Source: Spirosoma luteum DSM 19990 (lineage in GTDB: Bacteria > Bacteroidota > Bacteroidia > Cytophagales > Spirosomataceae). From it: a DNA stretch of 64,000 bases. Both the position numbers and the translations under genes were made by a program. Of this stretch, positions 11,511 through 55,202 are shown one piece after another. The stretch spans positions 1 to 64,000 of the forward strand of contig NZ_KB893262.1 in assembly GCF_000374065.1 (NCBI RefSeq), in the 5' to 3' direction. Within the stretch, counting starts at the first letter, position 1. Each line of letters begins with the position of its first letter. The notes under the pieces are model-generated. The model ran no database searches and was not told where the DNA came from. It saw only the letters and a list, made by a program, of their open reading frames with translations.

Positions 11511-12803
11511 ATGGAAAACCTAATTTCCGAGATGTTGAAATTATACTTATCTTACTGCCTTACTGTCAAATGCTATATGGCAACCCGATCCACATCGATC
11601 ATCGCTGGCAAGCCTGTCAACGAAACCATTCAGGTTGGTGAGCATGTGCTGACCGTAAGTCAGGCACTGAACTACTTTACTGCCTGGTTACCAAAGCCCG
11701 GTAACTATCCCCGGGTTGTCCGTCCGTATCTCCTGTTTTGTTTGGCCAATGCCTATCCCATTGACCGATTTAGTCTAGGTCTGTTTGCAGCAGGCCTGTC
11801 GGCAAATCGGGTGTCTCCCTTGCGGAAATTTCTATTGTTTTATCACACGCAGGGCACACCCCGTTTAGTCGCTGACCCGCCCCGCGCTTCGACAACGATT
11901 CCGGCCGCCAACGAATTGATCCTGGGCTTTCTCCACGATACGACCACCTTGCGGGGGGATGAGTCCAAAGATACCTATACCAAATCCCTCAACGCGTTCT
12001 TTCGCTACCTGGCCGATGAGCAACTGCAGGGCAGGCAAGCATCATTTGCCGGGCAGACCGTAGGACGCTATGTCGAATGGCTCAAAAATGAAGGGCTATC
12101 GGCCTTTACCGTCAATATCCGACTTTCAGCGATTAAGCAGTTAGCAGCCTGGGTGATCAAGAATCGCCATAAAGTGGGGGTATCAGCCGAGCAGGTAGAT
12201 GCGTTGCGAGACGTAGCGGCCGTACGCGGTTTGACGACCGAACGCAAGTTTTATAAAGACAGTCTGCAACAGGCCGAGCGTGACGAGCTGCTTCAGGCGA
12301 TTGACGATCCAATGGACCGGGCCATCGTAGCCTTGCTGGTGATTGAAGGACTGCGGACGGTCGAAGTTACCCGGCTTAAAGTGGGTGACATCGATTTTGA
12401 GCGCCAGCAGCTTTGGGTGAAAGGTAAGGGGAAAAATACAAAAAAAGACATCATCCTGTTCCCTACGTGCGCTCAGGCGCTGGACCTGTATTTACAGGAA
12501 GCTTACTATTGGCCCATTTCTACCCATGCAGGAAAAGCCTTGTTTCCTGCGTTGAAAACCCATCAAATTCGGTACCGGGTTGACAAATACTTGAAGCAAT
12601 TAGCCCTGAAAAGGCCCCGCTTATCAGCTCATAGCTTACGCCACACAACGGGTCAGTTGCTGATTCAGGAAGGTGTTGAACCCATTCATGTGCAGCGGCA
12701 CTTGCGGCATGAATTGTTCGAAACCACCCAATTTTACATCAAAAAACAAACCGAACAGGATTACTATGTAAAAATAGTGGTATCTAATAAGTCAGATGCA
12801 TAA
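11511..12803 (+). CDS. Tyrosine recombinase / integrase (XerC/D-like)
   Basis: 430 aa, or 408 aa from the ATG at 11577; the start is undecided. The N-terminal SAM-like core-binding domain covers about residues 130-240. The catalytic domain shows the first Arg in LLVIEGLRTVEVTRLKVGDI, the Lys in WVKGKGKNTKKD, HSLRHTTGQLLIQEGV (H-x-x-R) and the nucleophilic Tyr in FETTQFYIKK after the LRHEL histidine. It likely resolves plasmid dimers or integrates DNA. A dif-like inverted repeat lies about 60 bp after its stop codon. Confidence 0.88.
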   Translation: MENLISEMLKLYLSYCLTVKCYMATRSTSIIAGKPVNETIQVGEHVLTVSQALNYFTAWLPKPGNYPRVVRPYLLFCLANAYPIDRFSLGLFAAGLSANRVSPLRKFLLFYHTQGTPRLVADPPRASTTIPAANELILGFLHDTTTLRGDESKDTYTKSLNAFFRYLADEQLQGRQASFAGQTVGRYVEWLKNEGLSAFTVNIRLSAIKQLAAWVIKNRHKVGVSAEQVDALRDVAAVRGLTTERKFYKDSLQQAERDELLQAIDDPMDRAIVALLVIEGLRTVEVTRLKVGDIDFERQQLWVKGKGKNTKKDIILFPTCAQALDLYLQEAYYWPISTHAGKALFPALKTHQIRYRVDKYLKQLALKRPRLSAHSLRHTTGQLLIQEGVEPIHVQRHLRHELFETTQFYIKKQTEQDYYVKIVVSNKSDA

Positions 12804-12861
12804 GGCTGTAATGAAGAAAATAACGTTAATCACTTAATACATTGTCTCGTTGTAAAAAAAT

Positions 12862-12889
12862 ATGTTTAATGCTTTGTTGCATTAAGCTT
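12862..12889. repeat. Candidate recombinase core site (dif-like)
   Basis: TTAATGC (12866-12872) and GCATTAA (12879-12885) are perfect 7-bp inverted arms around a 6-bp centre TTTGTT. Two short arms around a 6-8 bp centre is the usual core of a tyrosine recombinase site. It lies just downstream of the recombinase gene. Assignment as its target is inference; a weak terminator hairpin is the alternative. Confidence 0.4.
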
Positions 12890-12998
12890 TTGTATTTATG
12901 TAACATTGTAACAAACGGCTTTTGCTCTTATATGAATTGGTACTGTAATTCAGGCATTATACCAATTAGCAGGGGATAGTTTGTAACTATTCAAGTAA

Positions 12999-13240
12999 CT
13001 ATTGACCATTGTTTTGACTGAGTATATCAATCGCTATTGGGGCCTCGGCAGGTAGACGTTGTACGGTTAACGCCATCATTGAAAGAAAATACATATTTTT
13101 TTGGCCTCGCTCAATTCGTGAAATGTAAGTTTGATCCAAGCCACATCGGTCAGCAAGCTCTTCTTGCGTAACGCCTTTTTAAAGCCTTCCTTTTTGACCG
13201 CTTTACCGAACGCCAGTGGAATAGAACTCTCCTTTATCAT
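12999..13240 (-). pseudogene. XRE-family helix-turn-helix regulator, frameshifted
   Basis: From ATG 13240 the frame reads MIKESSIPLAFGKAVKKEGF and then shifts. The continuing homology is in another frame: KGVTQEELADRCGLDQTYIS RIERGQKN, the classic HTH_3 core, to a TAG at 12999. Adding one A to the poly-A run near 13176-13180 would restore an uninterrupted reading frame of about 80 codons. Either the gene is inactivated or the base call in the homopolymer is wrong. It would be a Cro/C1-type DNA-binding regulator. Confidence 0.75.
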
Positions 13241-13299
13241 AGAAACAAAGTCCGGTAGCTCTTCGCGCTACAGAAATACCCGATAGGCTATCCTCCTGG

Positions 13300-14037
13300 T
13301 TACTCAGCAGAGCGAATGTATAAAGCGGCTTTACCAAAATTAACTCGATCCGTATACGTCTCCAATTCACGGTCGATGAGTTTGTTATCGTAGGGGACAG
13401 GTCGGGTGATGTATTTGGTATCAATAAAGATGATATTCAGCCGCTCATTGATTAGTTTTTCCGTACTCCGCTCGTCCGTACGCTGAGTATGCTTTAACAT
13501 GTGCTCATTGGCCGTCCCCGTCTTGATCTCTTCCGTATCCTCAAAGTACCGGAATGAACAATACCAATAGCGATAATAGTGATGGTAATTCGATACACAG
13601 AATTGAAATTGATCGGGGGACTGGCGAATAGCGCGTAATAAACTATCAATATCCTGCAATTTCTGGTGTTGGCCCGGTGTCAACTCGTCCAGAAAGGATC
13701 GGGCATACAAATTATCGCGTTGCTCCTTCAGAATATCGTGGGCTGAGTCGGGTTTGATACCCCGGTCAATCTTATACTTATGCTTGTTATAAAAAGTAAG
13801 GGAGATGGCTGGCCGCTCGAAATTAACCAGTTTCAGATTTTTGAAGGGTTTTCCTGGCCTATAATAGGGTCTGAACAGCTCCATTTGCTCGGCGGGTACA
13901 AAGTAGTACTCTAGATCGGTCTCTTTGGGTAAAGCACTGACCTGATGAGTAAGTGGCTGTAAAAGAGTGGTGCAGGACTTTAGTAATTGACGAATTGCGG
14001 GTAAGGGCAGTAGGTCGGATTGCTTAGCTTTAGCCAT
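13300..14037 (-). CDS. Hypothetical protein near the replication origin
   Basis: 245 aa, not recognised. It is rich in Tyr, Arg and Lys (YYFVPAEQMELFRPYYRPGK; NYHHYYRYWYCSFRYFEDTE), without signal peptide or membrane helix. It is divergent from the origin and rep, with its promoter region (TATATTTT at about 14057-14064 on the minus strand) on the AT-rich side of the iterons. Position suggests a plasmid maintenance role. Function unknown. Confidence 0.5.
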   Translation of the reverse strand: MAKAKQSDLLPLPAIRQLLKSCTTLLQPLTHQVSALPKETDLEYYFVPAEQMELFRPYYRPGKPFKNLKLVNFERPAISLTFYNKHKYKIDRGIKPDSAHDILKEQRDNLYARSFLDELTPGQHQKLQDIDSLLRAIRQSPDQFQFCVSNYHHYYRYWYCSFRYFEDTEEIKTGTANEHMLKHTQRTDERSTEKLINERLNIIFIDTKYITRPVPYDNKLIDRELETYTDRVNFGKAALYIRSAE

Positions 14038-14084
14038 ACGGGTAAGGATTAGTAAAATATAGACTCCTATTTCCCTGCAAGGTA

Positions 14085-14601
14085 AATAGTTATATGTAAA
14101 TTTCCTTTTTTACCCTTTTATATAATCAAAATTAGCGTTTGATTTTTTTGAATTTTATCAATTATTCCTTTTGATTGATTTAAGAGGTCTGTAACTTGCT
14201 AATTAACAATAAGTTATGAGCACAAAAACAAGGTTTAGTCGGTACGAAAGTGAGGTTTAGTCGGTTTTGGATAGCTCAAAAAGTGAGGTTTAGTAGGAAG
14301 AAAGGTTAGGTTTGGCCGATATAAAGGTGAGGTTTAGTCGGTCTGTTAAGTAAAGGTTAGGTTTGGCCAGGGTGAAAGTGAGGTTTAGTCGGTGTCTTAT
14401 AATTACCAGCAGAATTGCGTATTTTCTGTGACCAATTGACACATTTATGCCGGTTTATCCCTGAAACCGGGGTATATATCCTCAAACTAGGGTGTTTGAG
14501 CACCAATTTAAGCGGTCAAAATCGGCTTAAAGTGAGGTTTAATCGGTCGAAAAGTGAGGTTCAGTCGGTGACTTATTGTTGAAAGGTTAGGTATAGTCGG
14601 T
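14085..14601 (+). other. Plasmid replication origin with ten iterons and AT-rich region
   Basis: About 130 bp of AT-rich DNA (14085-14215) is followed by repeats of about 19 bp. Type A, AAAGTGAGGTTTAGTCGGT, is at about 14229, 14247, 14279, 14323, 14375, 14529 and 14551. Type B, AAAGGTTAGGTTTGGCCR, is at 14301 and 14352, and an A/B hybrid at 14582. Between 14394 and 14528 there are two small hairpins: CCGGTTT/AAACCGG and CTCAAAC/GTTTGAG. The rep gene follows immediately. Together this is the standard layout of an iteron-controlled theta replicon, where Rep binds the repeats and opens the AT-rich part. Confidence 0.88.
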
Positions 14602-14611
14602 GAGGTTTTCA

Positions 14612-14650
14612 GTGAAAAGTAAATTTGATACAACCAAATTTACTTTTCAC
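14612..14650. promoter_or_regulatory. Perfect 16-bp inverted repeat ahead of rep (likely Rep operator)
   Basis: GTGAAAAGTAAATTTG at 14612-14627 is perfectly inverted at 14635-14650 with a 7-nt centre. It lies between the last iteron and the rep start (14691). In iteron plasmids Rep dimers repress their own gene at an inverted repeat in exactly this place. The arm shares little with the iterons, so a different binding mode or a separate repressor is possible. Confidence 0.6.
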
Positions 14651-14690
14651 CTTTTTCTTTTTAATCTTTGTATATAGACTCCATTGGCAA

Positions 14691-15809
14691 ATGAAGAAGA
14701 CAGATTTTAAACCTCAGCAGTTATCCCTTTTTAATCGATATCCGACTAACTATCAGTCGAATCTGTTCACGGAGTCACGCCAGGAATTTACCGAGCTGGA
14801 AAAGAAAATTGTTACATTACTGGTTAACCAATTGGGTAATATGGCCGTGCAGGGGCAGGTTCAGCCTAACGTAAACGTGGTTGTTACTATACCTTACAGC
14901 GAATTGACCAAAGATCGGTATGATCGGATTACGGAAGCGGCTGAATCACTTTCTAACAAGCGAATATCCTTTAAAGATGATCGAAATGGCCAGTTTATCT
15001 TTATAACGCCTTTTCCTTTTGTACAATCGTTGTTAATTGAAGGCCGTCGGTTGATTGAAATAAAGTTACTGGCTGATGTTGTTCCTCATTTTGCAGCGCT
15101 GGGCCAGCGATATACTAAATACGATCTCGACGTAATGCTATCACTCACATCCGTTTATGCACAACGCATGTTTGAGATTGTGAGCATGAACTTTCACATC
15201 AAAAAAATGCGGTTTACGTATTTAGTGGATGAACTGCGCAATATCCTTAATTGTCCAGCCACGTACCGATATGTCGATTTCAAGATTAATGCCCTGGAAA
15301 TGGCTCAACGGGAGTTACGGCAGAAAGCGGATATCATTCTCGAATGGCAACCCTCCCGCAAGGAAGGAAAGCGAGTCGTTGAACTTGAATTTGAGATTAA
15401 GACTGTGCAGCAACTAGCTGTCGAAGGCGTAAAAGAAGATGCCTTGATAATTAATACCATGTCGCCCAATGAGCTAGTAATAAAAGGGTATGAAGTGATG
15501 GCTAATTATCAATTGAAATCTTGGCAAAAGGACGCAATCGTTACTGATATGACTTTGCTGGAAACGCTGCTAAGATTGCATTCAGAATTCCTGAATGGCT
15601 TGCGGCCTGAGGTGAAGAACCGTAATAAATATTTAGCAAAATCCTTAGGTCTGGATAAGTTGAAGTCTCCTAAAGCCGTTACCCCTGCTGTCCATTCTCC
15701 TGTTGAACCGCAAATAAGCTTTGCCTCTTCGACTTCTGCATCTCGTTCAGGCGAAGCCAAAATTGGGTCTATTATCGGTAGGATAATACCATTGAAAGAA
15801 TCGAAATAG
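14691..15809 (+). CDS. Plasmid replication initiator, Rep_3/RepB family
   Basis: 372 aa from ATG 14691. The upstream ATG at 14625 is rejected because it lies within the inverted repeat and ahead of the likely -7 box (AATCTTTG, 14663-14670). The protein shows the two winged-helix organisation of Rep_3 initiators: ELEKKIVTLLVNQLGNM, IPYSELTKDRYDRITEAAES, and the second domain with LSLTSVYAQRMFEIVS and FTYLVDELRNIL. It should bind the adjacent iterons as a monomer and recruit DnaA and helicase, with dimers repressing. The Ser/Ala-rich C-terminus is probably flexible. Confidence 0.92.
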   Translation: MKKTDFKPQQLSLFNRYPTNYQSNLFTESRQEFTELEKKIVTLLVNQLGNMAVQGQVQPNVNVVVTIPYSELTKDRYDRITEAAESLSNKRISFKDDRNGQFIFITPFPFVQSLLIEGRRLIEIKLLADVVPHFAALGQRYTKYDLDVMLSLTSVYAQRMFEIVSMNFHIKKMRFTYLVDELRNILNCPATYRYVDFKINALEMAQRELRQKADIILEWQPSRKEGKRVVELEFEIKTVQQLAVEGVKEDALIINTMSPNELVIKGYEVMANYQLKSWQKDAIVTDMTLLETLLRLHSEFLNGLRPEVKNRNKYLAKSLGLDKLKSPKAVTPAVHSPVEPQISFASSTSASRSGEAKIGSIIGRIIPLKESK

Positions 15810-16877: not shown

Positions 16878-18428
16878 TTAGTTAGGCAGCTTTTTAAAAA
16901 TAAACGAATCATTGTCCACAAAATCAGTACCCTTTAATTCAAGAGACTGAACGCCGTTAGCGGCCACCCTAAACTTAACTGGAAATATACCAAAACGGGT
17001 ATTGGAAAAAGTAAGCCGAAATGTGTCGTTGTCCATGTAGTCCAACTGAGCCGTTAAGTCGGGATGATGTTCCAGCCGCATTAACAAAGGTTGATTGCCT
17101 GCCTTATCGGTCGCTGGTGTAATAGTTAGCTTTCCGTATAAATCATTCTGATAAACTCCTATGTAGGCCATTAAGGGTAAGGTAGGCTTCGTATTTTTCT
17201 CTACTCGTACCGCCAAAGCTTTTATTTCATTTTGACTAATCTTGTTTCGGCTTCGGGCTCCTTTTAAATAATACTGATTACGATTCGTATAGGGGACGTT
17301 CAAATAAGAATCCAGCACCTGAAACCGTAGGGCTTCGTGAAAATTGTGATTGTCCTGATTGGTTAAAACAACGATGGCCAGCTTCGCTTCAGGAACAATC
17401 GTCGTGTTACTACGGTACCCCCCACAGGCACCAGCGTGCGAAAAGACGGCATAGTTAGCGTAATCAAACTTGCCGAACCCAAGGCAATAATACTGAAATC
17501 CTAATGGGAACAACTTCATTCGTTCGGTACTAATAATCGTATTCGGTTCGCGCGTCTTTTCCAGTACGGACCAGGGTAATACCGGCTTCCCATTTACTTT
17601 ACCACTGTCGAGCTGAGTCGTCAACCAAGTGGCCATATCACGAATACTAGAGATCATACCAGTTGCGGGGCCTAAGTTGTTCAGATTATCGAATGGTAAG
17701 CTCGATAACTGATCATCAGCCGTGCAACAGGTAGTATAAGGCCGGGCTATATTATCCTGTTTCTGCATTGCTGACGAGGTCATGAAGGTTCGAGTCAGAT
17801 GCAGCGGATTTAAGATGGATTGTTGGATGTATACCTCCCAACTTTCTCCCGCTACCTTGGGTATAATTTCTGAAGCCACAACGTAGCCTGAATTAGAATA
17901 ACCAAAATCCTGCCGAAAGGGGTAATGAGGCACAAAATAACGCATACGCTTAAGAACATCTGTTCGGGTGAAATCGGTATCCCAGAACAAAAAATCCCCC
18001 TGGTAATTTTTAGTCCCCAACCGATGAGATAACAAGTCCCGAATTGTTAGAAGTTTGGTCGCTTCGGGGTCATATAGAGAAAAATCAGGTAAGTACTTAA
18101 CAACCCGATCATCGAGGGAAATTTTTTTCTGTTCATCTAACAAAGCAATTGCCGTGGCCGTAAACTCCTTGGTATTGGAGGCAATCATAAACAGGGTGTT
18201 CTCATCCACCGGATCATTTTTCCCGGCCTCTTTTGTCCCGAATCCTTTAGCGATAACAACCTTGCTATCTTTAATAACGGCTACGGCTAATCCTGGTATT
18301 TGCCAGTCGGCCATACCCTGTTGGATGTAACGTTCCAAACTATCTGATATGAAGGAAGGCGTTGTTTGAGCCAGAACTGGCCATGGAGCCAAGGCGATGC
18401 CTATAAGTATGAGTAAGGCTTTTTTCAT
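16878..18428 (-). CDS. Serine hydrolase of the beta-lactamase/class C (S12) family, exported
   Basis: 516 aa from MKKALLILIG (an ATG five codons upstream is possible). The signal peptide ends near VLAQ. The active-site S-x-x-K is in FMIASNTKEF, the Y-x-N motif in FGYSNSGYVV, and the HAGACGG box takes the place of K-T-G. A DUF3471-like beta domain follows from about residue 390. Such enzymes cleave beta-lactams, D-amino-acid peptides or esters in the periplasm. It lies 65-80 bp downstream of the TonB-dependent receptor on the same strand and is probably co-transcribed. Processing or degradation of a peptide in the neighbouring RiPP island is conceivable but unproven. Confidence 0.85.
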   Translation of the reverse strand: MKKALLILIGIALAPWPVLAQTTPSFISDSLERYIQQGMADWQIPGLAVAVIKDSKVVIAKGFGTKEAGKNDPVDENTLFMIASNTKEFTATAIALLDEQKKISLDDRVVKYLPDFSLYDPEATKLLTIRDLLSHRLGTKNYQGDFLFWDTDFTRTDVLKRMRYFVPHYPFRQDFGYSNSGYVVASEIIPKVAGESWEVYIQQSILNPLHLTRTFMTSSAMQKQDNIARPYTTCCTADDQLSSLPFDNLNNLGPATGMISSIRDMATWLTTQLDSGKVNGKPVLPWSVLEKTREPNTIISTERMKLFPLGFQYYCLGFGKFDYANYAVFSHAGACGGYRSNTTIVPEAKLAIVVLTNQDNHNFHEALRFQVLDSYLNVPYTNRNQYYLKGARSRNKISQNEIKALAVRVEKNTKPTLPLMAYIGVYQNDLYGKLTITPATDKAGNQPLLMRLEHHPDLTAQLDYMDNDTFRLTFSNTRFGIFPVKFRVAANGVQSLELKGTDFVDNDSFIFKKLPN

Positions 18429-18508
18429 CAGTATTGTATTCATTAATGAACAAGGCTGTATTTAGATAAAATTATTCAAGAAACCCGGTTTATGGCAAAT
18501 GGGATACA

Positions 18509-20986
18509 TTAATTTCGCTTGGTGTCGAGTCTTTCCTGCTCCGTATCTGACCCAAACGAACGCAGTTGTATGGTTTTGGCTTTCCGATTGCCAAACCGGT
18601 ACGAGTACGTTAGCAGAAACTGTTGCGACTCGTATTTATGGCGGAATCCGATGTTTGTGTTTAAGTATTCACCGTGATTACGGATCAACAGTGTATGGAA
18701 AATATCAGTGGCAGCTACTTTAATAGTTGCATTTTCACCCAATGGCCTTTGCAATCCCAAATCGACAAACCAGATTGGATCATAAATCATAAAGCCGACG
18801 ACGGCCAGGCCCCGGTACGTTCCATTCAAATTAGCTGACCATTTTTTCCAGGTGAATGTATTATTGATCCGTATAATAGCCGTGGATTGCCTATTAAGAA
18901 AGGGTATTCCTTTGAATGTCGAATAAAAATGAGAATTAGCTGCGGTAATTACCCCCTGCATTAGCCACTCTTTAGTCAGTTTGAAAGGCATTGACAATGT
19001 AGCGGCAATACGACGCTCCCAATTGAAGTTTAAGCTATAATCAAGCGTTGTGGGGGAAAGTGAGTCAATGCGGTAAACAATCTCAGCAATTCGATTTCTG
19101 CTGTTGCTGTAAACGAGTGTTAAACTGATTCGCTTGGGTGTACTATAGATTCCCTGTATGGTCGTAGTTAGTTGAGGAACCAATAGGGGATTTCCGCTAT
19201 ACAATGTTAGGGGGTCATAAAAAATGTAGGCCGGATTAAGTAGGTTAAAGCTTGGACGAATAATCCGACGGTTTAGGGAGATACTGTATTGATTCTTTCG
19301 TTCCGATGTGAACTGCACATTTAAAGATGGGAATAAATTGACGTACGACCGATTAATGGCTATTGAATCACCCGATAATCCTTTATAATTGGTATGCTCC
19401 AGGCGCACTCCTGCTTGTAGCGACCAGTTTTTGATTTTGTAAGCCAGGTTAGTGTAAACGGATTCCGTTTGTTCCTGGTATTGATACGATTTGCTTAATA
19501 AAGAAAGTAACGATCCGAAATAGGGGGTGTAAGTCTCTACGTTGGGCATGGCATTCATCGTAAGCCAACTGTACTTGATGCCTGACTCAACCTGCCCTTT
19601 TTTCAGAAATGGAGTTACGTAGTCAATTTTAGCGGTTCGTATTTGAACCTGATTAGGATAACGTATTTGCACATATTCAGGCGGACGAAGTTGGGGAAGA
19701 GTCTGAAAAAAGTTGGCGGATGATGCTGAACCAACGGTAAATCGAGCAACATCAATATCGGCGGATAAGACGGTTTCCGCGTTCTTAAATTGCTTTCTGG
19801 CATTAACGTTACCGGCCAGATTGTTGATTCGTTGGTTTAGCTGCGTAATGGCATCGATTTGTGTTTGTGCCCCCTCGTTGGATAATTGGTAGGTTATGGA
19901 CGAGATTGGGTTGTCAGTTTCTGCGGTATTTGTGAACTGCAAGACGGTGCCTACTGTAAGTCGCCTGGCAACTTTCCAGTCCCAGGCGGTACGAAGCAGA
20001 TGAGACTTATTGTCAATTCGATTAAATTCATCGCTATGGGCAAACCCTCCTGTTTGCGATGGCCGGGTCGCCAGGTATTGATCAGATCGCCAACTGAAGT
20101 AAGTAGGTCGATAGCTGGGGGTGTACAGAAACGTTCCCTGCGCATTCGCTGTTTGAAAAGCCAGGCTTATAGATGCATTACTTTTAGGATAACGTCCTGC
20201 TCCACCCGATAGAGAAATCTCCCCGGTAAAGCCTTCTTTATTAATCCCTTTGGTATAGATCAATATGATTCCGCTACTGCCGGCATCGTACTGGGCTGAA
20301 GGATTCGTCAGAATTTCAATTCGGGAAATGACAGTAGCGGGTAGTGCCTGTAAGTAAGTTGTAATTTGATCAGGAGGCAGGTAAAGTTGATGCCCATTCT
20401 GGTATAAAATCAATCCCGTTTTTCCATCAATACCTATAGTTTTAGCTACAGCATCAATGGTGACACGGGGAGCGCGACCTAGTGCATCAAACGCATTGCC
20501 ACCACTAAAAACTGGATTCGATTCGACATTCAGCACAATACGGTCTCCCAGTATCTCAAAAACAGGTCGTTTTTCACTAACCGAGACTTCATCCAACTTT
20601 AAAGCAGTAGCCCTTAAAATCAAGTGAACGGGTTGAGTAGTCACCGTATCGGAGACAATGAACTGGCGCTCAACTGATTGCCAGCCTACATAGCTGGCCT
20701 GAAGAATGTAAGAACCAGCCGCTAAGTTGTTTAAGTAAAAAGCACCCGTCGTATCACTAATAGTTGCTTTGACCAGGCTCGAATCGGCCCTTAACAAGGT
20801 TATTATGCCAGAAACAGCATTACCACCCGTTTCAAACCTAATCGTTCCTTGTAAAGTTGTTGTTTTCAGAATTTGTCGGTCAGATGGACTTGATTGACTG
20901 AAACCGGCAAATGCAAAACTTAATATAAACACAGGAACATTTATATACCAGTGATTGAACCAAGACGTTGAGTTTTTATTAAACAT
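18509..20986 (-). CDS. TonB-dependent receptor-type outer-membrane protein
   Basis: 825 aa from ATG 20986; the longer frame would overlap the divergent kinase gene. A signal peptide (VFILSFAFAGFSQS) is followed by a carboxypeptidase-regulatory-like domain (LQGTIRFETGGNAVSGIITLL … GSYILQASYVGWQSVERQF, residues about 45-125), a plug-like domain (GNAFDALGRAPRVTIDAVAKT … QYDAGSSGIILIYTKG) and an OMP_b-brl_3-type barrel ending in the aromatic strand FLLTYSYRF. It is expected to import or release a ligand across the outer membrane. Its start codon is only 6 bp from that of the divergent kinase. Confidence 0.85.
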   Translation of the reverse strand: MFNKNSTSWFNHWYINVPVFILSFAFAGFSQSSPSDRQILKTTTLQGTIRFETGGNAVSGIITLLRADSSLVKATISDTTGAFYLNNLAAGSYILQASYVGWQSVERQFIVSDTVTTQPVHLILRATALKLDEVSVSEKRPVFEILGDRIVLNVESNPVFSGGNAFDALGRAPRVTIDAVAKTIGIDGKTGLILYQNGHQLYLPPDQITTYLQALPATVISRIEILTNPSAQYDAGSSGIILIYTKGINKEGFTGEISLSGGAGRYPKSNASISLAFQTANAQGTFLYTPSYRPTYFSWRSDQYLATRPSQTGGFAHSDEFNRIDNKSHLLRTAWDWKVARRLTVGTVLQFTNTAETDNPISSITYQLSNEGAQTQIDAITQLNQRINNLAGNVNARKQFKNAETVLSADIDVARFTVGSASSANFFQTLPQLRPPEYVQIRYPNQVQIRTAKIDYVTPFLKKGQVESGIKYSWLTMNAMPNVETYTPYFGSLLSLLSKSYQYQEQTESVYTNLAYKIKNWSLQAGVRLEHTNYKGLSGDSIAINRSYVNLFPSLNVQFTSERKNQYSISLNRRIIRPSFNLLNPAYIFYDPLTLYSGNPLLVPQLTTTIQGIYSTPKRISLTLVYSNSRNRIAEIVYRIDSLSPTTLDYSLNFNWERRIAATLSMPFKLTKEWLMQGVITAANSHFYSTFKGIPFLNRQSTAIIRINNTFTWKKWSANLNGTYRGLAVVGFMIYDPIWFVDLGLQRPLGENATIKVAATDIFHTLLIRNHGEYLNTNIGFRHKYESQQFLLTYSYRFGNRKAKTIQLRSFGSDTEQERLDTKRN

Positions 20987-20992
20987 AACCAC

Positions 20993-22258
20993 ATGTTTCG
21001 TAAAACTAGAAAACGTAGTAACATACCTTATTGGTTTAAAGACCAATCACTGGTTGAGTTACCACCTCGCCCTATTACACTAACCCGCATTTGCGAGCAT
21101 CTGCTGTTTTGGGTATGGAATGGCTATTCTGCATATAATGCTCTGGACCGTGTACTTCGTGTTGATCCAGCGATACCCCCTGATCCCGACTTGTTTAAAT
21201 TGATGGATATCACGCACTTTGGCACGACGGTGGTATTATTTTACCTGTATGGCTACCTGGTCGTACCTGCTCTTCTGAGTTCGCTTGTGTACTACCGATC
21301 CACTCGTAAAATAATCTGGCCCAAAGTTGTGTATGTGGCCTTTGCTATCGTGGCGGCTTTTATGTTGTTCAACGTGTATGATTATTATTTATTCACCTAC
21401 GTAGCGGAACATTTCAAACCAGAACCCGCCTATGTTAAACGGTACTATGATCTTTTACAACTTGCTGGACCCTTGGGCATTTTCACCAACTATTCCCTAG
21501 TAACCTTCATCTGGGCTTACAATTTATCGTACATGCTTCTTCCGATATTGATACGCACCATTCGGGAAGCCATTTCGTGGGGAGTAGAAAGCCTTGAACA
21601 GAAAGAGCAGAACCAGATTCTGATTCAGAACCAACTCAAATTGCTTCAGTTTCAGATTAATCCACATTTTTTGTTCAATGTGTTCAACAATATTCTGGCC
21701 CTGATCCAGCGTACTAATCAGGAAGCGGCCGAGCTGCTCCGCAGGTTATCCAGTATGATGCATTACACATTGCATGATACCAACCAAAGCTTTGTGCCTC
21801 TGATAGGTGAACTACAATTTTTGGAGAATTATATAGAAATTGAAAGGAGCAGGCATTTTGACCCGGACAAAATCACGTTTACAAAAACCGGTGATCCTGG
21901 CTCTTTTACAACACCCCCTCTCCTACTGGTGACTTTCATTGAGAACGCTTTTAAGCACGGCCTAAATAACTGCATCGATGAAGCATGGGTAATGATTGAA
22001 TTGCTGATTAATGTCGAGACAGAAACCTTACAGGCAAGGGTAAGTAACTCCGTTTCCCACCAGATCAGTACTCCATCTAAATCAGGAGGGGTGGGATTAG
22101 TAAACGCCCGGAAAAGGCTGGATTTACTTTTCAAACCAAATACCTATCTCTTAACCGTGAATGAGCAAGCTAATTTCTACGAAGTCCTTGTAAAAATTCC
22201 TCTCAATCGAATTAAGCATAATGCCTATGATACCTCCTATCAGTTGTCTAATCATTGA
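20993..22258 (+). CDS. LytS-family sensor histidine kinase
   Basis: 421 aa. Several membrane helices lie in the first 190 residues (VVLFYLYGYLVVPALLSSLVY; VVYVAFAIVAAFMLFNVYDY). The His_kinase domain follows: LQFQINPHFLFNVFNNILAL with the phospho-accepting His near residue 224, and the ATPase N-box FIENAFKHGLNN near residue 317, then SGGVGLVNARKRL. It should phosphorylate the LytTR regulator whose gene overlaps its end by 38 bp. The signal sensed is unknown; gene context makes the nearby peptides a candidate. Confidence 0.9.
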   Translation: MFRKTRKRSNIPYWFKDQSLVELPPRPITLTRICEHLLFWVWNGYSAYNALDRVLRVDPAIPPDPDLFKLMDITHFGTTVVLFYLYGYLVVPALLSSLVYYRSTRKIIWPKVVYVAFAIVAAFMLFNVYDYYLFTYVAEHFKPEPAYVKRYYDLLQLAGPLGIFTNYSLVTFIWAYNLSYMLLPILIRTIREAISWGVESLEQKEQNQILIQNQLKLLQFQINPHFLFNVFNNILALIQRTNQEAAELLRRLSSMMHYTLHDTNQSFVPLIGELQFLENYIEIERSRHFDPDKITFTKTGDPGSFTTPPLLLVTFIENAFKHGLNNCIDEAWVMIELLINVETETLQARVSNSVSHQISTPSKSGGVGLVNARKRLDLLFKPNTYLLTVNEQANFYEVLVKIPLNRIKHNAYDTSYQLSNH

Positions 22259-22970
22259 CGATGAACCGTTAGCCCAGGAATTATTGTCAGATCATGTAGA
22301 ACGAATACCGTCTTTACACGTAATTGGTAAAGCTCAGAATAGTAAACAGGCCCTCAGCTTGTGTAAAGAATTACAACCTGATATGTTATTACTGGATATT
22401 CGGATGCCGGGTCTGAGTGGATTTGAATTTTTAGATTTGCTTCCCCAACCCGTCCCACTGGTTGTTGTGACAACGGCTTATCGGGAGTATGCGTTAAAAG
22501 GGTACGAGCATAATGTTGTTGATTTTCTGGAGAAGCCCATATTTTTTGACCGCTTTCAAAAAGCCATTCAACGGGTTGAAGAGCGTCTGGGGTCAACTCG
22601 GCTCAATAGCAACAGCAAATCATCACAAGAAGATAGTAGTATCAATTTGACGATGAAACTGCTATCGGTGCGCGTGGGCCGGGATACAATTAACATTCTG
22701 CTTGACTCCATTAACTATGTCGAATCGTTGGATAATTATGTTAAAATCCATCTCAATTCAAGAAGTAGTAAACCCGTTTTATCCAAAATGACCGTTGCTC
22801 AATTAGAAAGCAAACTACCTGATGACTCCTTTATTCGGATTAATCGAAAGTACATCGTTCGAATTGATCAATGTCAGAAAATTACAGCTAGTTCGATCCT
22901 ATTGTTTAGTGGTGAGGAATTGCCCATTGGCGTAACCTTCCGGGATGCCGTTCGACAGACCCTACTATAA
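22221..22970 (+). CDS. LytTR-family response regulator
   Basis: 249 aa. The receiver domain begins CLIIDDEPLAQELLSDHV with the acidic pocket at residues 13-14, the phospho-acceptor Asp59 in LLLDIRMPGLSG and the conserved Lys in VVDFLEKPIFF. The LytTR DNA-binding domain covers about residues 150-249 (INYVESLDNYVKIHLNSRSS, FIRINRKYIVRIDQC). It overlaps the kinase gene. The LytTR-type direct repeat at 23059-23088, between this gene and the peptide genes, is its likely target. Confidence 0.9.
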   Translation: MPMIPPISCLIIDDEPLAQELLSDHVERIPSLHVIGKAQNSKQALSLCKELQPDMLLLDIRMPGLSGFEFLDLLPQPVPLVVVTTAYREYALKGYEHNVVDFLEKPIFFDRFQKAIQRVEERLGSTRLNSNSKSSQEDSSINLTMKLLSVRVGRDTINILLDSINYVESLDNYVKIHLNSRSSKPVLSKMTVAQLESKLPDDSFIRINRKYIVRIDQCQKITASSILLFSGEELPIGVTFRDAVRQTLL

Positions 22971-23058
22971 CCCTGTGCAGTTGTGCATTTGAGATGGTGT
23001 AGAGCATCTTGAAGGAAGTGGGCCAAATTTACCCCCCAAAACCCTGTATTCATCCCCT

Positions 23059-23088
23059 CACCAACTAAATAAGGGCATTCGCCAACTA
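23059..23088 (+). promoter_or_regulatory. LytTR-type direct repeat ahead of precursor peptide operon
   Basis: CACCAACTA (23059-23067) and CGCCAACTA (23080-23088) form a 9-bp direct repeat with a 12-bp spacer, starts 21 bp apart. This is the geometry known for LytTR regulators such as AgrA. A T-rich -7-like box (TATATTTTG, 23114-23122) lies 25 bp further on and the first peptide start at 23139. A near-identical block, including flanking TATTYATCCCCTC, occurs at 26801-26842. Confidence 0.7.
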
Positions 23089-23138: not shown

Positions 23139-23270
23139 ATGAACCAGAAAACAACCTACAAGCGCTTTCAAGTCACGAAACGTCATCTCGCCAACCGTCA
23201 GGCCCTCACTTATAATATTACTTCAAAACCTGGCTCTGGAACAACGATTGATGTGACGATTAGTGCGTAG
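23139..23270 (+). CDS. RiPP precursor peptide 1 (43 aa)
   Basis: ATG at 23139, TAG at 23268. The leader-like half holds TYKRFQVTKRHLANRQ and the C-terminal half LTYNITSKPGSGTTIDVTIS is rich in Thr/Ser and Gly but has no Cys. The next peptide has the same length and shares RFQ-VTK, and a dehydratase gene follows. The most likely role is substrate for Ser/Thr dehydration by the LanB at 23544-26654, the leader motif being the recognition sequence. Without Cys it cannot form an intramolecular lanthionine. It does not match the usual Bacteroidetes class I lanthipeptide leader pattern as I know it. Confidence 0.72.
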   Translation: MNQKTTYKRFQVTKRHLANRQALTYNITSKPGSGTTIDVTISA

Positions 23271-23334
23271 TATTTTTTGTTTTTTCTGGATTTTATAAGC
23301 TATTTTGTATATGAACTAACCTAATTATTGTAAT

Positions 23335-23466
23335 ATGACAACGTTAAATCGCTTTCAGCCCGTTACCAAAAAAACGGTAAAATCACGAATGGATGTCAAA
23401 GCTACTGCCTCCAAGAATTACACAGACTGTGGAGGTTCTGGTGGAACAATTGTTTCGACTTTATAG
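23335..23466 (+). CDS. RiPP precursor peptide 2 (43 aa)
   Basis: ATG at 23335, TAG at 23464. The leader-like part is MTTLNRFQPVTKKTVKSRMD and the core-like part TASKNYTDCGGSGGTIVSTL, with one Cys, several Thr/Ser and a Gly-rich centre. It is paralogous to the preceding 43-aa peptide (RFQ-P-VTK versus RFQ-VTK). A single Cys allows at most one (methyl)lanthionine ring. A T-rich TATTTTG box at 23301-23307 may give it its own promoter. A hairpin terminator separates it from the dehydratase gene. Confidence 0.75.
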   Translation: MTTLNRFQPVTKKTVKSRMDVKATASKNYTDCGGSGGTIVSTL

Positions 23467-23487
23467 AGTCATTAGAACGAATGAGAT

Positions 23488-23524
23488 AAATACCCCGCCT
23501 AATCCACCAGACGGGGTATTTTGT
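23488..23524 (+). terminator. Terminator/attenuator between peptide genes and lanB
   Basis: AAATACCCCG (23488-23497) pairs perfectly with CGGGGTATTT (23512-23521) around a 14-nt loop, then TTGTTGTT. It sits 20 bp after the second peptide stop and ends 20 bp before the dehydratase start. Partial read-through would give many copies of peptide mRNA and few of enzyme mRNA, as in many RiPP clusters. Confidence 0.75.
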
Positions 23525-23543
23525 TGTTGATTAGCCTGATTAT

Positions 23544-26500
23544 ATGGAATTGGCCGTTGATCATTTTTCTTTTTTTGTTCTCCGACTGCCCCGTCGACCG
23601 ATCAGTCAACTCATTGAACAAATCAATCGCGTTATACATCTTTCCTCCACGGATGAAAGTAAACTCTTACTGAAGTTGCTTCAACAACCTGGGGTAGATG
23701 AATCAATCTATTTAGCTTCGCCTGACCTATATATTGCCTGGCAGTCAGCGAAAGCAAATCCCAACGGGTTGGACGATGCCTTGAAGAAGTCGTTGTGGCG
23801 TTATGTAATTCGTTCCTATAGCCGGGCTACACCCTACGGCTTATTCGCGGGAGTGGGCGTGGGGACAATAGGCCCGTCAAGTCGGGCCATGTTCGGCCCA
23901 ACTACCTGGAAAACGGTTAGTCGGCCCGATAGCCTTGCCTTGTTAGCGATAAGTCGAAGAGCTGACGAGGACCTTTCCATTCGGCCTTTACTTCACTATC
24001 GGTTAAATAACAGCCTTTATGAAACGGCTGAACAGTACCGGTTCTCCGAACGAACCGGTAGCCGTCATCAACCCAAAATTGTTCTATCGTCGCTACCCCA
24101 TACCCCTGATTTACAAACGCTGGTAAATTTTCTACGAGTGCGTGGATCGGCCTCTTATGCAGAATTGATTATTCTATACGGTCCAGAATACCAGCAGCAA
24201 GTAAAGATTTACGTAAATCAATTAATCAATGATCAATTCTTAATCAGCAACCTAACCTTACCCGTTACAGGTTGTAGTACAGCGGATTATTTATTACAGC
24301 AGTTAAAAATACTGGGAACGGAATACCCTCTCTATCAACAACTTTCGAAAGCTTCGTCTCTATTAAGAGACTCTCCGATCAAGCTGACAAACCTAAAGCA
24401 GGTTCAGGAATTATTTCACGAACTTGTACATGACGAGACAGATGACCGTACAGATGCGTTGGTTCAGACCGATTTATTTTTCTATCCTACCCAGTTAGAA
24501 CTATCATTAACAACGATAAAACAAATTGCTAAGCAGTTCAGTCAGCTTCTGACGGTCTTACAGCACCGAAGTGTTTCTCCTTTAGAAGAATTTTCCAGGC
24601 GGTTCAGGGAGCGGTTCGACCAACAGGAGGTTGATCTACTGACCGCTCTCGATCCCGACTTTGGTATAGGTTTTATGCAGGATACGTTGGCCGGTTTCCC
24701 GCTTCTAAGTGAATTGTTTGATACCCCTCCCTCCTCTCCACATACTAAACAGGAGCATCTTCAGCCATTTCGAGATTCATTGTATATTCGACACGTTCTC
24801 AGTAAATCGAAAGAAGTAGAAATCACGGAAGCCGATTTAGCTATTATAGGGTTAAAAATCACCAATGCTACTTCCCTTCCCCCTTCGTGGTACTTACATG
24901 GTGAGTTATTTTTCAAGCAGCAGACTTCTGAACCGGCTTTCTCTTCAATAGCCGATGACAAGCCGGATACCTGGAGGTTTGTTCTTAATTCGACAATATG
25001 TGGCTCAGCCGCTTATTTTTTAGGGCGGTTTTGTCAGGGGCACGAGCAATTAAGAGCACACGTTCAGGCCATGTGCGCCTGGGAACAAACCCAGTATCCT
25101 GAAGATACACTGGCGGAAATTGTTCATCTTCCGGTGAAGCCCGTTCAGGCGGGGAATGTTGTTGCACGACCAGTATTACGCAGTGTTGAAATACCTTACC
25201 TGACACCTGCGGGCGTATCAGATGACCACACCATTTTGTTATCTGATTTAGTCGTTTCTGTTAGCGACGGAGGGGAGGTCATACTAAGGCATAAAAAAAC
25301 TGGACGGCGGGTTCGACCACGACATAGCAACGCCCACAATTCAGGATTGGGTGACGAAGTGTATCAATTTTTATCCGCTATCCAGGCAAGCGAATCGCCA
25401 ATCCTGGCTTGGTCATGGGGGACATTGCATCATTTACCGTTTCTCCCCCGTGTCGTTTTTAAAAACATTATTGTCAGTCCTGCTCAATGGGTTATACAAA
25501 AACAGTCTCTACCACTCAATCATACTGTTTCGGCTGAGTCACTCAGACACCTTTACGAATTACCCCGATACGTTCAGTTGATTGAAGGCGACAACAAATT
25601 GTTGCTCGATCTTGAATTTGGCCCGACAAGTCAGATGCTGGTTGATGCAGTCAAAAAACAGGAACGGGTTTTTCTGAAGGAGTGGATTGGCCAAACTTTT
25701 CAGCCCTGGATAAAGGATGGACTAGATCAGTACGTATCGGAATTGGTTATACCCTTAAAATCGCCTTCGGTCCAAAAAAATACGTGGAGGATAGTGCGCC
25801 CAACAACGTCGTTTGTACAACGGACCTTCTTGCCTGGACAGGAGTGGTTTTACATAAAAGTATACTTGAATGAATCGGCAGCAGATCAGTTTTTAATAAC
25901 CGTATTAAGCCCTCTGAATCAGCAATTTAAAAAAAAAGGGTGGGTAATAACTATGTTCTTTGTTCGCTTTGCTGATCCAGATTACCATTTACGAATCCGT
26001 TTTTCAACTTCACCTAAACAGTACGGACGGTTAATAAATGCCTGGCAAAAAGCAATTCAGGACTATAGCAGCACTGGTCTGGTGGAACGGGTTCAACTGG
26101 ATACGTATCAGCGGGAACTGGAACGATACCAACCTGAACTGATAGACTGCTGCGAAGCCATATTTTCAGCCGATAGCCAGTGCTTTTTAGTCTGGCTGGT
26201 TCAGAACGAAGTGGCCACAGAAGAGGAACGGTATGCACTGGCCGTGCATAGTGTTGATGCCTTATTGGCTAACTTCGATTTCACACTCGATCAGAAACTA
26301 CTTATTTATCAAGAGCTTCAACAGGCGTTTTTCAAGGAACATGGTGGTGGAAAAGAACTGAAGCAAAAGCTTAATGACCGCTATCGGAAATCCCATAAAT
26401 CAATTTTTGATCAATCAGCCCGCTATGTCCAACTGATGGAAGAACGTAAAGATAGGATGCGGGTGGCCATTGACAGGATTCAAAATTTTTTCTCTACTGT

Positions 26501-26654
26501 AGATACCCATTCCACCTATTACTCTTTGATTGGAAGTATTATTCATATGACATTGAACCGGATTTTTCCGTCGCACCAACGAAAGCATGAGTTGATCGTT
26601 TATCACTTTTTAGCCCGTTACTATGAGTCACAAAAGGCCCGGATTCAGCCTTAA
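23544..26654 (+). CDS. Lantibiotic dehydratase (full-length LanB, class I)
   Basis: 1036 aa, the normal length of full LanB enzymes. The N-terminal glutamylation domain shows SLWRYVIRSYSRATPYGLFA near residues 86-105, typical of PF04738. The C-terminal elimination domain (SpaB_C/thiopeptide-type, about residues 765-1020) shows EWFYIKVYLNESAADQFL and FFVRFADPDYHLRIRF. It should use glutamyl-tRNA to activate Ser/Thr of the two upstream peptides and eliminate to dehydroalanine/dehydrobutyrine. No LanC cyclase, LanP protease or LanT exporter gene lies nearby. Confidence 0.92.
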   Translation: MELAVDHFSFFVLRLPRRPISQLIEQINRVIHLSSTDESKLLLKLLQQPGVDESIYLASPDLYIAWQSAKANPNGLDDALKKSLWRYVIRSYSRATPYGLFAGVGVGTIGPSSRAMFGPTTWKTVSRPDSLALLAISRRADEDLSIRPLLHYRLNNSLYETAEQYRFSERTGSRHQPKIVLSSLPHTPDLQTLVNFLRVRGSASYAELIILYGPEYQQQVKIYVNQLINDQFLISNLTLPVTGCSTADYLLQQLKILGTEYPLYQQLSKASSLLRDSPIKLTNLKQVQELFHELVHDETDDRTDALVQTDLFFYPTQLELSLTTIKQIAKQFSQLLTVLQHRSVSPLEEFSRRFRERFDQQEVDLLTALDPDFGIGFMQDTLAGFPLLSELFDTPPSSPHTKQEHLQPFRDSLYIRHVLSKSKEVEITEADLAIIGLKITNATSLPPSWYLHGELFFKQQTSEPAFSSIADDKPDTWRFVLNSTICGSAAYFLGRFCQGHEQLRAHVQAMCAWEQTQYPEDTLAEIVHLPVKPVQAGNVVARPVLRSVEIPYLTPAGVSDDHTILLSDLVVSVSDGGEVILRHKKTGRRVRPRHSNAHNSGLGDEVYQFLSAIQASESPILAWSWGTLHHLPFLPRVVFKNIIVSPAQWVIQKQSLPLNHTVSAESLRHLYELPRYVQLIEGDNKLLLDLEFGPTSQMLVDAVKKQERVFLKEWIGQTFQPWIKDGLDQYVSELVIPLKSPSVQKNTWRIVRPTTSFVQRTFLPGQEWFYIKVYLNESAADQFLITVLSPLNQQFKKKGWVITMFFVRFADPDYHLRIRFSTSPKQYGRLINAWQKAIQDYSSTGLVERVQLDTYQRELERYQPELIDCCEAIFSADSQCFLVWLVQNEVATEEERYALAVHSVDALLANFDFTLDQKLLIYQELQQAFFKEHGGGKELKQKLNDRYRKSHKSIFDQSARYVQLMEERKDRMRVAIDRIQNFFSTVDTHSTYYSLIGSIIHMTLNRIFPSHQRKHELIVYHFLARYYESQKARIQP

Positions 26655-26812
26655 TACCCACCTATATATCTATAAATCAGTCAAGAAGACGTGGGAAATA
26701 AAATGCACTTACTCTTTGTTTAATTTAACTAAATATACTTTTTACCATAATAATATCTATTTCGTCCACCGAAATAACCTGTTTACCCACCAAAGCCGCC
26801 TATTTATCCCCT

Positions 26813-26842
26813 CGCCAATTAATCCTGAGTATTCGCCAACTA
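26813..26842 (+). promoter_or_regulatory. LytTR-type direct repeat ahead of LytTR-only gene
   Basis: CGCCAATTA (26813-26821) and CGCCAACTA (26834-26842) repeat the 9-bp motif with the same 12-bp spacer as at 23059-23088. The flank TATTTATCCCCTC matches TATTCATCCCCTC there. Its location 80 bp before the LytTR gene indicates shared control of the peptide operon and this regulator, possibly with feedback. Confidence 0.7.
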
Positions 26843-26923: not shown

Positions 26924-27427
26924 ATGAACTCAATGAATAATTCCCTCGCTCAACTGACTGAACCTGCCCATCATGGACCAACCAATGATTCTTTAATCAT
27001 TCAAAATTTAAGGCAGCAACTGGCCGATGCTTTACAGTTACTGGGGCGGTTACCCGAATCCAGCCAATCGACGATGGAGGATCATATTTATATTACCACT
27101 AACCGTCGGTTGCAGAAGGTATATTTCCAGGACATTCTATGGATCGAGAGCGACCGTAATTACGTCACCATTTACACGTCCACTCAGGTATATGCGGTTC
27201 ATCTCCCCATTAGTAAGGTAGAGGAAAAATTACCGAAAAGTTTGTTCTCAAGAATTCACAAATCCTTTATCGTTGCCAGCAGAAAGGTCGACTTCATTCG
27301 TAGGAATCAGGTGGGTCTCCGTCGGGAACATGAAACCAAGTTAATTCCCCTGGGAGCACAGTTTAAGAAATCATTTATTCAATCGTTTGGCCGAACGATT
27401 CTAAAACACAAATCCTACAACTATTAA
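26924..27427 (+). CDS. LytTR DNA-binding regulator without receiver domain
   Basis: 167 aa. A Gln/Leu-rich helical N-terminus (LIIQNLRQQLADALQLLG) replaces a receiver domain. The LytTR domain occupies residues about 55-150: VYFQDILWIESDRNYVTIYT and FSRIHKSFIVASRKVDFIRR. It probably binds the same kind of direct repeat as the response regulator at 22221-22970 and may antagonise or amplify it. Its own promoter carries such a repeat. Its stop overlaps the convergent backbone operon by 4 bp. Confidence 0.88.
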   Translation: MNSMNNSLAQLTEPAHHGPTNDSLIIQNLRQQLADALQLLGRLPESSQSTMEDHIYITTNRRLQKVYFQDILWIESDRNYVTIYTSTQVYAVHLPISKVEEKLPKSLFSRIHKSFIVASRKVDFIRRNQVGLRREHETKLIPLGAQFKKSFIQSFGRTILKHKSYNY

Positions 27428-55158: not shown

Positions 55159-55202
55159 GATCGCTCTGTCAAATGGTTGTTGAATACCCCTTTTCTATAT
55201 TC

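Follow-up and report, generated by a model that had tools for sequence, protein, structure and literature searches.

The window analysed here is a 64,000-nucleotide stretch of Spirosoma luteum DSM 19990 (contig NZ_KB893262.1, positions 1 to 64,000), and the locus in question comprises two short open reading frames (ORFs) and a LanB dehydratase gene. PepA (23139..23270, + strand) and PepB (23335..23466, +) are precursor peptides of 43 aa each, the first Cys-free and the second with a single Cys; LanB (23544..26654, +) is a full-length dehydratase with glutamylation and elimination domains, assigned by domain search and alignment. Two equal-length frames are indeed present at these positions ahead of the dehydratase, as an earlier note on this DNA had described. 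The usual view of a LanB is as one of two partners that together form lanthionines; here LanB probably modifies PepA and PepB without any cyclase. On balance, the locus appears to be a LanC-independent, autoregulated class I module for ribosomally synthesized and post-translationally modified peptides (RiPPs) on a plasmid-like element, predicted from its sequence to yield short dehydrated, mostly linear peptides.

LanB was searched for in 222 genomes of the family, 114 of which gave a match at E <= 1e-30, with at most three candidates scored per genome. The close LanB subfamily comprises 10 loci in 8 genomes, the window included, from Spirosoma and Fibrisoma limi; the other nine loci share 39-60% identity with the window LanB, and the next best match no more than 37%. 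Carriers include Spirosoma endophyticum DSM 26130 (G006), Spirosoma telluris HMF3257 (G032), in which LanB is split over three frames, and Fibrisoma limi BUZ 3 on its plasmid pFLIM01 (G150). Among 390 genomes drawn from the order, LanB matches at E <= 1e-185 occur in six, namely five of the genus and Fibrisoma; nine LanBs from viral contigs all have at most 26% identity, and of 92 plasmid records with a LanB match the 15 listed all have at most 34%.

PepA (MNQKTTYKRFQVTKRHLANRQALTYNITSKPGSGTTIDVTISA) and PepB (MTTLNRFQPVTKKTVKSRMDVKATASKNYTDCGGSGGTIVSTL) each begin at an ATG and were identified through their ORFs, conservation and dN/dS. The earlier note had made conservation of both peptides beside LanB in related genomes one test of its proposal; PepA is present in nine and PepB in all ten of the close-subfamily loci, in the same position. 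The nine aligned PepA copies have F-x4-R-x4-R-Q and T-I-x-x-T in common, and the main subgroup of PepB displays RF...K[KQ]T.KSR[MI] and GGTIVST; the PepB copies of G006, G000b/G015b and G027 diverge, leaving M1, S17, R18 and G37 as the only residues invariant over all copies. Most copies of both peptides share the leader pattern F-x4-[KR]-x4/5-R-[QM]. The short C-terminal cores of the window's subgroup are SGTTIDxT and GGTIVST, which look alike by eye (T/S-[IV]-x-x-T or near) and barely vary within the main subgroup. With synonymous sites near saturation, dN/dS (NG86) is 0.19-0.43 for PepA (window against eight relatives) and 0.16-0.31 for PepB (against five); pooled pN/pS is 0.56 for PepA and 0.43 for PepB, and for PepA of the nearly identical G000b and G015b the value is 0.78, calculated from very few changes. 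Chance ORFs are ruled out by this conservation and dN/dS, and both peptides have the features of a LanB-modified precursor: a conserved short peptide beside LanB, a Ser/Thr-rich C-terminus and purifying selection.

No credible Pfam or NCBIfam family was found for PepA or PepB of the window, and no Pfam or NCBIfam precursor model exceeds its cut-off for the peptides of nine LanC-free relatives (four PepA/PepB relatives and five from sister loci). The new precursor family envisaged earlier beside a LanC-less LanB is upheld as two families, both conserved in relatives and without a credible match. The L1a leader model NF038153 (cut-off 22 bits) gives no match to the window peptides or to the four PepA/PepB relatives tested, and a single weak score of 16.7 bits among the five sister-locus peptides; that score belongs to one of four peptides with an R-L-x-L-K-K-x-R-I kind of leader, the other three giving none. 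The claim that the leader is unlike those known holds for the window's subtype; that the PepA/PepB-type leader descends from the Bacteroidetes one already known is no more than a supposition.

LanB is a 1036 aa protein in which both dehydratase domains are complete (Lant_dehydr_N, 398 bits; Lant_dehydr_C, 211 bits), as the earlier note had proposed. Its residues were mapped onto NisB in an alignment of nine sequences, comprising the window LanB and eight relatives, in which the residues and motifs that follow are invariant. According to the accessible text of PMC4341554, Y80, R83, R87 and H961 are important in NisB; by our own reading of the alignment these correspond to Y87, R90, R94 and H1001 of LanB. 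NisB R826 corresponds to R861 through the RYG motif given in the accessible part of PMC3091789, and of the motifs in that source YxxR, GxG, RxTP and RY are fully invariant, as are the R and F of GRF and the H and R of HxxxNR. LanB therefore shows both defining domains (PF04738 and PF14028) together with the NisB catalytic residues. Within the elimination domain H815, R817, R819, E858, E860, R861 and H1001 do not vary. These residues bear on the view that this LanB only glutamylates, or performs another tRNA-dependent step without elimination, as would be the case for an enzyme like the peptide aminoacyl-tRNA ligases (PEARLs). LanB homologues with changed function such as PEARLs do exist, but the elimination domain here is full length with its residues intact, which leads us to reject a PEARL-like LanB and makes any reading of this kind very improbable.

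LanC (PF05147) has no match across the whole genome that carries the window, so that the absence noted earlier for the window alone extends to the entire genome; a LanC in the cluster or the genome, by which class I lanthipeptides are recognized, is lacking there. At an E of 0.001 no LanC is found in five of the eight module genomes (G000, G006, G015, G021 and G032), and in the other three (G027, G029 and G150) it lies on a different contig from the module. PepA cores contain no Cys, and the whole of PepA is Cys-free in seven of nine aligned copies, the Cys of G032 and G015a being located in the leader; PepB has a single Cys in eight of nine distinct aligned copies. With Cys absent from the PepA cores and usually single in PepB, the product is most naturally read as uncyclised or little cyclised. 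A conventional one-ring class I lanthipeptide, in which the PepB Cys closes a lanthionine spontaneously or through a LanC acting in trans, would draw on that same Cys, and non-enzymatic closure is chemically possible; it is nonetheless unlikely, given the five module genomes without LanC, the mostly Cys-free PepA, the absence of Cys from G027 PepB and the shifted position of the Cys in the G006/G000b/G015b subgroup.

The earlier note had called the locus minimal, which does not hold, as the conserved unit includes five further genes, encoding a kinase, a response regulator, an outer-membrane protein, a hydrolase and a second LytTR protein. The conserved order is barrel (-), kinase (+), LytTR response regulator (+), then PepA, PepB and LanB, with the barrel, kinase and response regulator each present in nine of the ten loci. 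The outer-membrane beta-barrel protein (18509..21046, -) is TonB-receptor-like (PF14905), with a CarbopepD_reg-like N-terminus and a weak plug match. The LytS-type histidine kinase (PF06580; 20993..22258, +) has hydrophobic segments within its first 190 residues, its real start possibly lying downstream of the ORF start; the response regulator (22221..22970, +) consists of a receiver and a LytTR DNA-binding domain. An S12 (beta-lactamase) family serine hydrolase (16878..18443, -; PF00144 and DUF3471) has a hydrophobic N-terminus and is probably exported; it holds the same position and strand in seven of the ten loci, is split over two frames in G032, and its count is limited by the stretches of G029 and G015a, which end before its position. 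A stand-alone LytTR DNA-binding protein of 167 aa (26924..27427, +), found by domain search, follows LanB in four of the ten loci.

The barrel and the kinase are largely confined to LanB loci. Among the matches listed in Spirosoma, the barrel has eight places with at least 44% identity, the window's included, all in modules, and the rest have at most 31%. Across 36 Spirosoma genomes the kinase has 15 places at E <= 1e-45, of which 13, the window's own included, adjoin a LanB; the two places without LanB beside them are G030:C224 and G015:C1:2286791. A kinase and regulator genetically tied to a peptide, as expected of a peptide-pheromone system, are thus found both by locus (9/10) and by kinase place (13/15).

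Mobile-element genes at 11511-15809 and 53056-57275 of the window encode an integrase, a Rep3 initiator, a TraG/YWFCY coupling protein and a MobA-type relaxase; with these genes the window resembles a plasmid or some related, mobilisable element. This setting is not universal, as both module loci of G015 sit on an 8.8-Mb contig; the window's own genome (G000, 6.6 Mb) also carries two module loci, the window and G000:C28. The plasmid-like setting with its Rep3, relaxase and TraG-like genes would suit a two-component bacteriocin, in which PepA and PepB together make up a dehydrated antimicrobial, its production is controlled by the kinase pair, and the barrel or the hydrolase confers immunity or resistance. 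Two distinct precursors with related leaders in nine of ten loci are also in keeping with this, and LytTR control of bacteriocins is usual in Gram-positives. A bacteriocin is nevertheless the less likely reading, as the module contains no dedicated exporter or recognised immunity gene, the cores are nearly constant within the main subgroup, and of the two peptides G021 retains PepB only.

LytTR domains bind spaced direct repeats, and such a repeat, TCACCAACTA-N11-TCGCCAACTA with a 21-bp period, lies ahead of PepA (23058..23088, +) and is presumed to be the LytTR binding site of the peptide operon. Its consensus is TCRCCAAYTW, and a pattern scan locates a second copy (26812..26842, +) ahead of the stand-alone LytTR gene; a repeat precedes that gene in each of the four loci that have it. 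With a spacer of N11-13 the repeat occurs exactly twice in the 6.6-Mb genome, both times in the module, the backwards control giving none; in its exact N10-11 form it has six matches in four of 12 genomes, five of them in modules, and again none in the control. With up to three mismatches in all, it stands before eight of nine pepA genes and four of four second-LytTR genes.

The module belongs to a broader set of LanC-free loci, which is the second respect in which it is not minimal: the family has many LanB loci that lack LanC and carry Cys-poor peptides, and the two-peptide type is one subtype of these. Eighty stretches were taken from the top of the LanB match list, a sample that leans toward LanBs like the window's, and gave 80 intact LanB rows (two from L081, none from L070). 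With LanC-carrying defined as a LanC place within 20 kb, weak matches included, 21 rows are LanC-carrying and 59 LanC-free, some of the latter perhaps owing to contig ends (L082). Long multi-Cys precursors with a known leader, caught by pattern, accompany 12 of the LanC-carrying rows; no peptide was caught in eight, and a short one in a single row (L111), which adjoins another LanB's LanC. The LanC-free rows divide into 28 of the R-L-x-L-K-K-x-R-I type (by a loose pattern permitting up to three Cys), seven of the RLKTKAIGSRM type, eight of the window's type, assigned by hand, and 16 with no peptide caught, several of which have such a peptide by eye. A LytS-type kinase is present in the stretch in 54 of the 59.

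In a FastTree phylogeny of 81 LanB rows (60 LanC-free), which carries long branches, among them L069 of the window's own clade, the window and eight relatives form a clade with support of 100, nested in a 16-row clade without LanC that also has support of 100. A 36-row clade has 34 members without LanC and a 21-row clade 17 with it; the LanC label changes eight times on the tree, compared with 18.9 in shuffles.

Several LanC-free loci have their own character. L071, L072, L073, L076, L084, L086 and L088 are sister loci, each with just one peptide, poor in Cys (RLKTKAIGSRM...YPTTIDLTIIFTL or a variant of it), and with a kinase and a LytTR regulator adjoining LanB. L077, L078 and many of L098-L140 form a large LanC-free clade with R-L-x-L-K-K-x-R-I peptides of about 42-47 aa beside LytS/LytTR-like genes; none of four such peptides tested is recognised by NCBIfam. 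In L074 and L075 the LanC-free LanB is followed by a CNLNCSYCYVY protein, radical-SAM-like by eye and perhaps a second modification, and by two further similar-looking genes. LanBs from Holophagaceae (Geothrix and kin) have LytS/LytTR-like matches, counted regardless of strand, 1.4-2.3 kb upstream in nine loci (L173, L190, L198, L199, L206, L208, L212, L220 and L223), with no clear short precursor in any of the nine.

The nearest known systems are the Bacteroidetes class I lanthipeptides (pinensin type; L1a leader NF038153; LxLxKx5L), which like the module have a two-domain LanB beside short precursors, and whose leaders resemble the R-L-x-L-K-K-x-R-I kind found in sister loci. They differ in that the window's genome has neither LanC nor C39 peptidase, and its 43-aa precursors have no or one Cys, no GG leader end and no leader-model match. 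Agr and ComDE are peptide-pheromone two-component circuits with LytTR regulators, and share with the module a small peptide gene, a membrane kinase, a LytTR regulator and direct repeats before the peptide operon; in contrast, the module has a Gram-negative host, an outer-membrane barrel, a PF06580 LytS-type kinase, LanB as the sole modifying enzyme seen, and sensing that is putative. The putative product would have dehydrobutyrine in a largely uncyclised peptide in common with linaridins, which to our knowledge are not made by LanB.

Orphan LanBs in Spirosoma have been known since 2010, while the PepA/PepB precursor families are new and so far unannotated. Marsh et al. (2010; PMC3091789), in its accessible text, reports four LanBs and five LanCs in Spirosoma linguale DSM 74, of the same genus as the window, with one pair in a cluster; that text describes the LanB-LanC cluster and LanAs, and not short Cys-poor peptides, a kinase, a barrel or a repeat. 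As given in the accessible part of Walker et al. (2020; PMC7268733), Bacteroidetes LanA leaders have LxLxKx5L, the search started from LanC, and ORFs without core Cys were discarded; because the mining began from LanC and required core Cys, a LanC-free, Cys-poor class would have been left out by design. A literature search, with subscription papers mostly outside its reach, found no published description of the module or of LanC-free LanB loci in Spirosoma.

In the mechanism proposed for the LanC-independent module, LanB would recognise the related leaders of PepA and PepB and dehydrate core Ser/Thr in a glutamyl-tRNA-dependent manner, giving short, mostly linear peptides with dehydroalanine and dehydrobutyrine (Dha/Dhb). 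The LytS-type kinase and LytTR regulator would activate transcription of pepA-pepB-lanB and of the second LytTR gene, with the regulator binding at the repeat; placing both under the same repeat would create an autoregulatory loop. The leader would be removed and the product exported; its site of action is most likely extracellular, and it would be received through the neighbouring outer-membrane barrel and through the kinase, whether as a signal or as a self-sensed antimicrobial.

Several observations weigh against this proposal. Since PepB mostly retains one Cys, a single thioether ring may form; the window's own genome has no C39 peptidase, and no exporter or leader protease is seen in the module. 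G021 keeps PepB and LanB without kinase, regulator, PepA or barrel, and a LytS-type kinase is also present in 18 of the 21 LanC-carrying rows, so that such kinases are not peculiar to LanC-free loci. Four module genomes (G021, G027, G029 and G150) lack the exact repeat, and G027 has none ahead of PepA even with up to three mismatches. The relaxed scan gives seven extra matches elsewhere in the ten module loci, one of them after the G021 LanB, and another three across 11 LanB loci outside these ten, exceeding the mean of 0.16 relaxed repeats per locus in mononucleotide shuffles of the window locus. The sixth exact repeat (G015:C1:5057151; L233 at 11152) lies ahead of a 52-aa ORF, at a distance of 39 kb from a module; this ORF ends in SSITLILSTL, its surroundings look degenerate, and the match is not used as support. 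Finally, across 28 pairs LanB and barrel identity followed the peptide cores as closely as, or more closely than, kinase-sensor identity; because of this result for the sensor, pheromone-receptor co-evolution is not demonstrated.

The module's product may be a simple dehydrated peptide signal or weapon. Three features place a signalling role slightly ahead of an antimicrobial one: the cores are conserved, the kinase and barrel are dedicated, and an exporter or immunity gene is lacking. Tentatively, the module could serve Gram-negative quorum or plasmid-carriage signalling, in which LanB-only Dha/Dhb pheromones cross the barrel, are read by the LytS-type kinase and amplify their own operon. We know of no well-defined peptide pheromone in Bacteroidota; should the peptides feed into the neighbouring kinase, they would represent ribosomal dehydropeptide signals in this phylum. 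LanC-free loci are in the majority (60 of 81 rows) in a set ranked by likeness to the window's LanB, which is not an unbiased frequency, and each LanC-free LanB locus offers an immediate test of chemistry by LanB alone. If the signalling proposal is true, the family's many LanC-free LanB loci, in which kinases of one lineage accompany differing peptide subtypes, would constitute a whole set of channels.

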